From Hyaloraphidium curvatum (lineage: Eukaryota; Monoblepharomycota; Hyaloraphidiomycetes; Hyaloraphidiales; Hyaloraphidiaceae), in NCBI GenBank assembly GCA_025558095.1, contig JAIVFI010000003.1, positions 806,001-870,000 on the forward strand: a stretch of 64,000 nucleotides of DNA, in the 5' to 3' direction. The notes below the pieces were generated by a model that saw only the letters and a program-made list of their open reading frames with translations, was not told the DNA's origin and made no database searches. A program made the position numbers and the translations under genes. Shown here piece after piece: positions 49,164 to 53,145 of this stretch. Each line of letters begins with the position of its first letter. Positions within the stretch are counted from its first letter, which is position 1.

Positions 49164-50518
49164 TCACGCCCTGAAAAGCTTCTCAAAGAACTTCCCGAAC
49201 TTTGACCGCCTCAGCGATGCAGACCTGGCCGGCGTAGCCAAGTTCGCAGACATCCTTGACCGCGAAACCTCCGCCGAGTCCCGGGTCGAACCGAGCGTGG
49301 TGACAGAGGCAAAGCTTGCCTCGGACCCGACTCGCGGAACCGCCACAGTCCTCCCGCTTTCGCTGCTCGAGTCGTCATCGTCCTCTTCAATGTCAGCTGC
49401 GAGCTCGCGCAGGTAGAAGGGCAGACGCCGTCCAAGCTCCGCCTCGGCCGCGGTACATGCCCGCTTGGGGTTGGCGGTCACCGAAGGCAGCTTCACGATC
49501 GGCAGCCTCGAGCGCGCCGAGGCGGGGGTCGCAAAGTCGGCGACCCATCCATGGCGCAGCAGGCTCTCCGCGGTAATGCGGCCTTCGTTCGCGGGGTTGA
49601 GGATAGTCCGGAGGAAGTCGTGGCCCAGCTCGCTGAGGCCCTCGACCTCCAGCGACGGCCGGCCTTGGATTTCGAGCTCGAGCTCGAAGGTGTCCTCCGA
49701 TCGGAAAGGAAAGTAGCCAGTCAAGCAACCGAAGGCGAGGACGCCGAGCGCCCAAAGGTCCTGGTGGCCGGAGTGGGCCAGGTAAGGCGTCCTCCGGTTG
49801 ATGAACCGCAGGAGCGAGGGGCTGGCGTAGTTTGTGCAGCCCACCGCCTCGTCGAGAAGGGTGTTGCGGTCGAAGAAGGTGGCCAGGCCCCAGTCGATGA
49901 CGCTGACGTGCCCCGACGTCGCGTCGTAGAAAACGTTGTCGAGCTTGATGTCGCGGTGGAGGACGCCCATGGAGTGGGCGTGTGCCAGGGCAACGAGGAT
50001 GCCCGCGACGATCCTCCTCGTCTCGTCCTCCTCCAAATGTCCGTCTTGCTTGCCGTTGGTGTACGAGAAGAGCTCTTCGCCCGGGGCGACGGCCATTACG
50101 AGGTTCGAGGCCGTCGACGTCCGAACGTAGTCGAGGAGCGGCGGAATAGAATCATGTGCGAGGTGGGTGAGGGCTAGCGCCTCTCGCAAGGAGAAGAAGA
50201 GGTTGCGGTGGTCGTTGGCGGACATCTTGGTCTGCTTCACGACGGCCTGGGAAGGACCTGTCAGCCCCTCGCAAACGCTGGCGCGCATCACGAGGTACCC
50301 ACGATTCTGCCCGTTCGGCCCTTGGCGACGCGGACCTCGGCGAATGCGCCCTCGCCGAGCACCCGGCCGGTCGCCCAGTCCTCCGCGGCGCCGCGGACAA
50401 TGGGCCCGTCAAAGACCTCGTCGGCGGGCATCGGGCGTCCGGGCTTGCTCGCGTTGCGCTCGGCCGCCATCTGCTTCTCTTTCTCGGAGCAGAGCGTGCA
50501 GCTGCTTGCGCGGTACAT
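49164..50518 (-). CDS. Protein kinase family member (DWG type), intact copy of a recent duplicate
   Basis: Exons 50518-50303 and 50246-49164 give 432 aa. The N-terminus has C-T-L-C. The kinase core shows G-E-G-A-F-A, A-V-V-K-Q, H-R-D-I-K-L-D-N, D-W-G-L-A-T-F and D-L-W-A-L-G-V-L. The APE region is Y-A-S-P-S-L-L (no Glu). The family block N-P-A-N-E-G-R and the basic tail K-F-G-K-F-F-E-K-L-F-R-A are present. The intron sits before A-V-V-K exactly as in the paralogues. An in-frame ATG at 50545 is an alternative start. The kinase region is almost identical at DNA level to the truncated copy near 60 kb, so this looks like the parental or sister copy. It is tail-to-tail with the hydrolase gene, 145 bp apart. 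Confidence 0.88.
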
Positions 50519-50560
50519 GGCGATGCTGGGCGTCGACTCCTGCATGTTGCGTTGTGCTGT
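49690..50560. repeat. Direct repeat copy A (segmental duplication, kinase gene)
   Basis: Most of this kinase gene is repeated in the same orientation at about 59803-60690, roughly 10 kb away, with long identical stretches (for example 49801-49860 against 59926-59985). Confidence 0.85.
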
Positions 50561-51001: not shown

Positions 51002-52993
51002 CTAATCTACAATCTTTTTGATCGCCTCTGCCCGCCCCTCCCCCGTCCTCAAGATGCCCGCGACGATCTGCCATATCTCGTCCCCGACACGCACCCCCTC
51101 GACCGCGCCTTCCCCAACCCGTCCCACCAGGAATCCATTGGCGACGTTGGCTACCTTCGCCTTCCGCAGCGCCTCGGCATACGCCTGGACCCTCCGATCC
51201 GTGGCCGGCAGCCCGTCGCACACCAGGGAAGCGTACTCCGCCGCCGTCCACGCTCGCCCGTATGCTACCTTGCCCGAAAACCCGCCAGGTGCCCACTTCT
51301 CCACCCGCTTGCCAAACTCCAGGGGGTCAGCAATGTTGCCGACGACCGCGACCAGCGCCCCCGGCTCGGCATGGTCCTTTAGCCCCCTTACGATCCGCTC
51401 CGTGAGCTCGTCGCCCCGCGGCCCGCCGTCGCCAAACAGCTCCAGCGGCACCGCGCCCTCCGGGTTCGGGATGTACGGCGGGTTGGCGAGCACGGTCGGG
51501 AAGCGCCGGCCGTGCACGGCGTCCCAGAGGTTGCCCTCGAGCGCCTCCGCGCGGTCCTCCAGCGCGTTGAGCAGCGCGTTGAAGCGGCAAAAGCACGCGG
51601 CACGTGGGTTGACGTCCACGCAGGCGACTTCCGTCGCGCCAAGGCGGGCGGCGACGAGGCCCTGCACGCCCGAGCCGGAGCAGAGGTCCACGGTGGGCTT
51701 GCCTGCGAGGCGGGGGGCCAGACCCTCGGCAAGCAGGCCGGCTAGGCCGAGCGAGTCGACGCCGATGAACATGACGGGGTCGAATACGCCAGTGACGGCA
51801 CCGCCCGCCGTGTGCTGGAAGTCCGCGGCGACGTAGAGGGTCGTGCCGGCGACCGAGAGGGGGACGATCTGGATGAGCATCTGCAGCGAGCCGTCGGGGA
51901 GCTCGAGCGCCATGTTCTGGTCGAGGATAAAGTCGACGGTTTCGGCGCCAAGGACGGCTTTGGCGCGGTCCCGCGGCACCGCGGATTGAAGGAGCACCAG
52001 CTTGGCTGCGTCCAGAAGCTTGTCGGCCCCCGGAAGGGGGAGCTCCTTTGAACGGGCAGCGAGCACCGAAGCTGCCTGCGCGCGCCCGTTGGGGTGCGAC
52101 AGGTTCTGTGCCGGGAAACCGACCGCGGTTGCAGGCAGGGAGAGCAGCGAGAGCATGTTGGCGGCCGTGTAGCCGCAGTCCTCGAGCGCCTTGGCCAGCC
52201 GCCGCGTCTGCTCGCCGTACGCGGCCTTCCACCCGCCCGGCGCCTCCTCGTCCTCCTCGAAGTCCCAGAGCGAGCTGCGCATCTTGTTCAGCTTCGGTCG
52301 CCCGTTGGGCAGGCCACGCGCGGTGCACGACTCGCCCTCGCCGACGTCCGTCACGGGCCAGAATACGTTGAACGCCACCGTGTCGGAATCGGGGCGCAGG
52401 TCCACGACCAGGGCCATCTGAAACTGCGCGTCCGCCGGGTCCGGCGCGGGCGCCAGCCTGCTCCCGACCTCGTCCATGATGTAGAAGAGCGATTTGCCGG
52501 CCCCGTCCTTCTGCTGCAGTTCGTAGCTCCCGGTCACGATCCACAACTTGGGCAGGATCTCGTCGATGATCGTTTCCGCTGACTTTCCAGGGCGCTCGGC
52601 CTTGGCCTTGAGCTCTCCCGTCTCCTTGTCCTCCTCGACCACGTACATGCCCTCGTCTTTGATCCCGTCGAGCTCCAGCAGCTCCGCCACGCGATCGCGG
52701 AGGTTCGGGAGCTGTGCCAGCAGGGACGCGGCCTCCTCGGGCCGCTCAAACGTCGCCATGTGGTCGACGAGCCACACGTCGGATCCGGCGGGAATGTCTT
52801 TGGCCGCCATCAGCCCGTAGCGGCATCCTTGTGGCTCGTCGGCGTCGAACGAGAACTGGAATGCCTGGCCGGCGTCGAAGGTGCTAGAAGACACCTTTTG
52901 GAAGAGGCGCTCGAACAGGGTTTCGGGGACGCCCTGGGCGACGAGCTGGTCGCGATGCAGGCCGAGCCATTCCGAATATGCCTGCGAGACCAT
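51002..52993 (-). CDS. TTLL12-N-like (SET-like) domain fused to PrmC/HemK-like methyltransferase
   Basis: The intronless frame encodes 663 aa. Residues 1-240 match the N-terminal half of TTLL12: G-V-P-E-T-L-F-E-R-L-F-Q-K-V, F-D-A-G, a V-D-H segment, then F-Y-I-M-D-E-V-G-S-R-L and F-W-P-V-T-D-V-G-E-G-E. TTLL12 would continue with a tubulin-tyrosine-ligase domain. Here the C-terminal half is instead a class I methyltransferase: motif I D-L-C-S-G-S-G-V-Q-G near residue 435, D-V-N-P-R-A, and the catalytic A-N-P-P-Y-I-P-N-P-E near residue 503. NPPY marks the PrmC/HemK group (N5-glutamine) and some N6-adenine enzymes. Start at 52993 aligns with the TTLL12 N-terminus. It is divergent from the USP-like gene. 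Confidence 0.85.
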   Translation of the reverse strand: MVSQAYSEWLGLHRDQLVAQGVPETLFERLFQKVSSSTFDAGQAFQFSFDADEPQGCRYGLMAAKDIPAGSDVWLVDHMATFERPEEAASLLAQLPNLRDRVAELLELDGIKDEGMYVVEEDKETGELKAKAERPGKSAETIIDEILPKLWIVTGSYELQQKDGAGKSLFYIMDEVGSRLAPAPDPADAQFQMALVVDLRPDSDTVAFNVFWPVTDVGEGESCTARGLPNGRPKLNKMRSSLWDFEEDEEAPGGWKAAYGEQTRRLAKALEDCGYTAANMLSLLSLPATAVGFPAQNLSHPNGRAQAASVLAARSKELPLPGADKLLDAAKLVLLQSAVPRDRAKAVLGAETVDFILDQNMALELPDGSLQMLIQIVPLSVAGTTLYVAADFQHTAGGAVTGVFDPVMFIGVDSLGLAGLLAEGLAPRLAGKPTVDLCSGSGVQGLVAARLGATEVACVDVNPRAACFCRFNALLNALEDRAEALEGNLWDAVHGRRFPTVLANPPYIPNPEGAVPLELFGDGGPRGDELTERIVRGLKDHAEPGALVAVVGNIADPLEFGKRVEKWAPGGFSGKVAYGRAWTAAEYASLVCDGLPATDRRVQAYAEALRKAKVANVANGFLVGRVGEGAVEGVRVGDEIWQIVAGILRTGEGRAEAIKKIVD

Positions 52994-53145
52994 CGCGACG
53001 TGCGGTTCTACGCCGGATCCGTGCGTTGTTTGATTGATTGACTTGATGGAATGGGCGCGTCCCGCGGCCGTCCCGCCGCCGAGTGTCCCCTTCCCCGACC
53101 GGAACCCCCTGCCAGTGCCGGCGACGCGTCTGATCTGCCGCGGCG
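52994..53145. promoter_or_regulatory. Divergent promoter region, TTLL12-N/methyltransferase / USP-like
   Basis: The two divergent start codons are 152 bp apart. No TATA box is evident. Confidence 0.4.

Follow-up and report, generated by a model that had tools for sequence, protein, structure and literature searches.

Two enzymes, PoyE and the aeronamide side-chain amide N-methyltransferase AerE, act on peptides, in which they methylate the side-chain amide of asparagine (PMC11285071). TTLL12 has also been connected with methylation: its knock-out lowers tubulin arginine methylation, and in vitro it gives a methyltransferase signal which depends on tubulin (PMC10883266), while no methylation of histones by it was observed in vitro (PMC3520985). 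In the human protein the SET domain alone shows no activity and the TTL domain is needed, and a fragment of residues 1-260 binds tubulin not significantly above the GST control (PMC10883266). The evidence on what the SET-like domain of TTLL12 does is divided, since it has no activity on histones but the full-length protein has a link to the methylation of tubulin.

Here we describe a gene of the fungus Hyaloraphidium curvatum whose predicted product pairs a TTLL12-type SET-like domain with an AerE/GenN-type methyltransferase. Both parts are known and the domain combination appears to be new; a literature search found no paper describing a SET_TTL and methyltransferase pair, and we know of no report of a TTLL12 N-domain paired with an AerE/GenN-type methyltransferase.

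The locus and its features

The window is a stretch of 64,000 nucleotides (contig JAIVFI010000003.1, positions 806,001 to 870,000). One uninterrupted frame at 51002-52993 on the minus strand, noted in the sequence-only reading of this DNA, was confirmed as a 663-residue ATG-to-TAG ORF, and the motifs named in that reading (Y-I-M-D-E-x-G-S-R, W-P-x-x-D-x-G-E, D-L-C-S-G-S-G and N-P-P-Y) are all located in it, as YIMDEVGSR at residues 171-179, WPVTDVGE at 212-219, DLCSGSG at 436-442 and NPPY at 504-507. The features in window coordinates are:

52994..53145, no strand: 152-bp gap upstream of the fusion ORF, separating it from a UBA-like gene in divergent orientation; probable shared promoter
51002..52993, minus: whole ORF, 663 aa, ATG at 52993 and TAG at 51002; intron not required
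52322..52993, minus: TTLL12 N-terminal or SET-like (SET_TTL) domain, residues 1-224 (Pfam PF25556)
52322-52579, minus: strongest Pfam SET_TTL stretch, residues 139-224; a second matching stretch lies further upstream
52226..52321, minus: polar, acidic linker, residues 225-256; coding signal continuous
51788..52225, minus: N-terminal helical/winged part of the methyltransferase (DUF7059-like), residues 257-402 (weak PF23186; alignment to the AerE N-domain)
51314..51787, minus: Rossmann methyltransferase core, residues 403-560 (Pfam MTS; AF2 pLDDT mostly above 90)
51767..51769, minus: F409, equivalent of AerE Tyr137
51755..51757, minus: D413, equivalent of AerE Asp141
51668..51688, minus: motif I DLCSGSG, residues 436-442, predicted to bind SAM (sequence motif)
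51473..51484, minus: motif IV NPPY, residues 504-507, with N504 taken as the AerE Asn231 equivalent
51005..51313, minus: C-terminal part of the methyltransferase half, residues 561-663 (AF2 model, AerE alignment)

With the probable shared promoter in this 152-bp gap, the one upstream regulatory gap of the gene lies ahead of the SET-like half. Downstream of the fusion gene, a protein kinase gene lies at window 49164-50545 on the minus strand, starting near 50,545, with what looks like a short intron at about 50,240-50,300; the adjoining fusion gene requires none. The genome searched (31.9 Mb, 55 contigs) is fungal in content, with 96 Zn(II)2Cys6 matches and chitin synthase in three places. Several fungal ORFs in it carry two Zn(II)2Cys6 clusters in a single frame (C35:28125-28361, C26:535805-536101, C4:54798-55133 and others).

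The first half is a TTLL12 N-domain

The whole protein matches SET_TTL (PF25556) with an E-value of 1.3e-11 and 45 bits against a cut-off of 25.6, and the first half scanned alone gives 7e-13. No second SET_TTL match was returned by the genome search, the fusion gene carrying the sole one found. Alignment to residues 25-239 of a human TTLL12 sequence that serves as a lead only, the Pfam match being the actual test, covers residues 3-224 with 27% identity over 246 columns (E 1e-14). Because of this coverage, the whole TTLL12 N-domain appears to be present, beyond the SET-like part. Residues 1-240 had been said to follow TTLL12 closely; the TTLL12 type stands on the SET_TTL match, whereas 27% identity to the human lead sequence does not bear out the closeness. 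The match to that sequence ends before the TTL half, and a Pfam scan at E up to 10 found the TTL domain (PF03133) absent from the fusion protein.

A TTLL12-type TTL gene is found on contig C42 (L004, L006), with its TTL match at 73323-74117. Its protein matches residues 224-613 of the human TTLL12 lead sequence with an E-value of 9e-29 and the solved TTLL6 with 1e-5, a rough comparison, the two values being from different searches. The N-terminus of the C42 protein has no SET_TTL match and no BLASTP similarity to the SET-like half of the fusion; profile comparison of the two yields a 24-column hint which is too weak. Judged by these matches, both TTLL12 halves are in the genome, in different genes; they may go back to fission of one TTLL12 or to duplication and divergence. 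The earlier statement that the tubulin-ligase half is replaced thus holds for the fusion, where the methyltransferase is in its place, but not for the genome, where a TTLL12-type TTL gene survives on C42.

The second half is of the AerE/GenN type

Single-sequence AF2 prediction of the whole protein gave a pLDDT of 36, and the structural results concern the methyltransferase half, modelled from 31 sequences with pLDDT 85.6 and pTM 0.88. The Pfam MTS profile (PF05175) matches with an E-value of 4.5e-9. Residues 1-381 of the model (residues 256-636 of the protein) align to AerE 2-376 with Z 33.1 and 3.4 Å rmsd over 354 residues, which makes AerE the nearest solved structure. GenN follows with Z 27 over ~300 residues, and scores then drop to Z 16-18 for N6AMT1, PrmC and HemK, whose alignments of ~180-226 residues cover mainly the catalytic core (PrmC: 221 residues, Z 17.3, rmsd 3.8). 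Profile searches with the second half agree, with 2e-46 for AerE, 2e-21 for GenN and 1e-9 for HemK. The N-terminal part of this half alone reaches DUF7059 (PF23186) at E 0.062 and 13.9 bits, below the gathering score of 27; close bacterial relatives match the same profile at 1e-7 to 4e-6 and 20-32 bits. By profile and model, the second half is of the AerE/GenN-type family over its whole length, including the N-terminal domain. A genome search for the methyltransferase half turned up one clear copy only.

Over its whole length the second half is a member of a bacterial natural-product family whose proteins have about 360-500 residues. The Streptomyces relative (L019) is 35% identical over 312 aa (E 9e-40); for those from Gammaproteobacteria and cyanobacteria the identity is 32-35%, and several of the bacterial sequences come from MAG contigs. 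Maximum-likelihood analysis groups the fungal sequence with bacterial carbamoyltransferase-linked members in a clade supported at 100/99, as sister to eight bacterial sequences which are held together at 98/94. A carbamoyltransferase is linked to the methyltransferase in five of these bacterial relatives: the pair is fused in L021, L022, L023 and L025 and encoded by two adjacent ORFs in L024. In cyanobacteria and Gammaproteobacteria, the methyltransferase ORFs L020-L025 share a conserved C-terminal sequence, TTPTC[LI]SSY, with the look of a peptide encoded in the tail. B12-dependent radical SAM genes adjoin L019, and sensor kinase or response-regulator genes lie near L022 and L025. Such gene neighbourhoods hint that, in the bacterial source lineages, the chemistry concerns small molecules or peptides. 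A lead from crocagin, which also combines a carbamoyltransferase and a methyltransferase, was dropped; CgnL is described as closest to CcbJ and KedS8 (PMC10070186).

Scans of viral contigs with the whole protein and with the N-terminal half found no relatives, and the methyltransferase alignment gave one short match there; tblastn against plasmids and phages returned methyltransferase matches only, mostly to the core. The relatives compared being bacterial, we infer that the second half was probably acquired from bacteria by horizontal transfer; an older eukaryotic lineage of this half is an alternative which these comparisons do not separate from direct bacterial transfer.

The active site and the F409 substitution

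The alignment maps AerE Y137 to F409 and D141 to D413 without gaps; these two positions and N231 are the ones altered in the AerE variants Y137F, D141A and N231A among the PDB entries. D413 is invariant (35/35), as is N504 in the 35 aligned sequences. Position 409 is Tyr in the other 34 of the 35 aligned relatives, and Phe in the fungal protein alone. F409 may reflect changed chemistry, another substrate, or activity that is weak or absent.

It is conceivable, though unlikely, that the gene encodes a pseudo-enzyme fusion, in which both folds are kept, catalysis is lost in both and the protein serves as a scaffold. F409, standing where all 34 other aligned relatives have Tyr, fits such a protein, as does the absence of critical catalytic residues from the TTLL12 SET-like domain (PMC3520985). 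However, SAM motif I, the acidic motif II, NPPY, D413 and N504 are all intact, and the coding signal is uniform.

Proposed function

The best explanation, to which we give about an even chance, is a nitrogen-directed methyltransferase from bacteria tethered to a non-catalytic TTLL12 N-domain in a single-gene fusion. Computation shows the frame, the family to which each half belongs, how the second half folds and that the SAM and NPPY motifs are conserved; we infer that the protein is catalytically active, that nitrogen is its target atom and what the first half does. The C-terminal 400 residues would be a SAM-dependent N-methyltransferase of the AerE/GenN family, probably horizontally acquired, and its methylation target would be an amide or amine nitrogen in a peptide, a protein or a small molecule, with that nitrogen held by the conserved Asp413 and by Asn504 of NPPY. 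AerE and GenN, the top two structural matches, are both nitrogen methyltransferases. The N-terminal 224 residues would be the TTLL12 SET-like domain in the part of a non-catalytic docking or folding partner. The target is not readable from homology, because the bacterial members differ widely in substrate. What is upheld of the sequence-only reading is a class I methyltransferase that shares one frame with a TTLL12-type SET-like N-domain.

A more specific version, which we regard as doubtful, has an amide N-methyltransferase that descends from bacterial RiPP enzymes and acts on proteins in a eukaryote, with the TTLL12 SET-like domain selecting the protein substrate. If this is true, the purpose of the TTLL12 N-domain would be to present the substrate for methylation.

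It seems improbable that the protein is a tubulin- or histone-modifying enzyme in which tubulin or chromatin is reached through the TTLL12 half, with the methyltransferase in tow. The fusion has the SET-like domain, and both the knock-out phenotype and the tubulin-dependent signal of TTLL12 (PMC10883266) would agree with this. However, it lacks the TTL domain which human TTLL12 requires, and human residues 1-260 neither bound tubulin nor were active alone (PMC10883266). Since the shared part is the one that did not bind, the inference to tubulin is weak, and so is the tie between the TTLL12 N-domain and tubulin or histone modification that had been drawn for this locus. The target is probably, by analogy with the human protein, other than tubulin.

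On the preferred reading of a tethered N-methyltransferase, natural fusion to a working-looking methyltransferase suggests that the SET-like domain may be a methylation partner rather than an enzyme, and the fusion protein is a construct for testing that role. The gene is also a fungal instance of an N-methyltransferase of the AerE/GenN type.

Coding signal across the junction

At the 64% GC of the window, a second frame of the 51002-52993 stretch is open for 472 codons. An open frame alone therefore proves little and, open frames being cheap at this GC content, the fusion claim rests on homology in both halves. Codon log-odds, trained on two neighbouring genes, are positive in the ORF frame in every 60-codon window and highest of the frames throughout, junction included. 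GC3 is 0.76-0.98 across the ORF, whereas the intergenic DNA on either side, read in that phase, has 0.62-0.64. Between the halves there is no stop and no intergenic-looking gap, while genuine intergenic DNA nearby has a much weaker third-position GC bias. The junction had been placed at about 52,250-51,750; the domain boundary is instead at approximately residues 225-256 (52,226-52,321).

Two adjacent genes or a gene-model artefact, joined by the frame only through stop scarcity at 64% GC, would be in keeping with the 472-codon frame, but this is very improbable: the ORF frame has the top codon log-odds in every window over the junction, a stop and an intergenic-like gap are both absent, and only ~32 residues separate the homologous parts. 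The artefact is disfavoured by the codon signal, and the uninterrupted frame joining TTLL12 SET-like N-domain and methyltransferase is confirmed at the level of sequence.

Assignment to PrmC/HemK

The second half had been typed as PrmC/HemK. NCBIfam scores are far below the family cut-offs (TIGR03534, 46.5 against 199.1 bits; TIGR00536, 41.5 against 115.5; TIGR00537, 46.2 against 87), and a genuine HemK-family gene is found elsewhere, at C34:340396-341262. Structural modelling, which the sequence-only reading had proposed, upheld the methyltransferase when run on this half, and placed its fold nearest to AerE, well ahead of HemK. That the half is of the PrmC/HemK/N6AMT1 type and methylates glutamine (or lysine) in release factors or histones, to which the NPPY motif and the likeness of its Rossmann core to N6AMT1 and PrmC (Z 16-18) might point, is scarcely credible, and we reject the membership on the cut-offs, on the far better match of AerE and GenN to the whole half and on the separate gene on C34.

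Comparison with known systems

With PrmC/HemK and N6AMT1/Mtq2, the fungal protein shares a Rossmann core and NPPY (residues 504-507), but the sequence match is limited to the core domain. With TTLL12 of human and other eukaryotes it shares the N-terminal ~224 residues, including the YIMDE-GSR motif, and differs in having a methyltransferase in place of the TTL domain. GenN, the gentamicin N-3'' methyltransferase (PDB 5u4t, 5u18, 5tyq), has a similar overall fold and also methylates nitrogen; unlike the fungal protein, it has NSP in the alignment instead of NPPY, is stand-alone and acts on a small molecule.

The bacterial fusions of carbamoyltransferase and DUF7059-methyltransferase form the closest clade (32-35% BLAST identity) and likewise involve an AerE/GenN-type methyltransferase. 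Their partner is a carbamoyltransferase, however, where the fungal partner is SET_TTL, and their C-terminal part is longer, with the TTPTC[LI]SSY ending. AerE and PoyE (PDB 7rc2-7rc6) resemble the fungal half in whole-length fold and in the N-terminal helical domain, and the Y/F-x-G-x-D-S motif, the NPP motif and the equivalents of D141 and N231 are kept. They are only 16-19% identical to it and have Tyr137 at the position of the fungal Phe; the fungal protein, for its part, is eukaryotic and fused to a TTLL12 domain, with no RiPP cluster seen.
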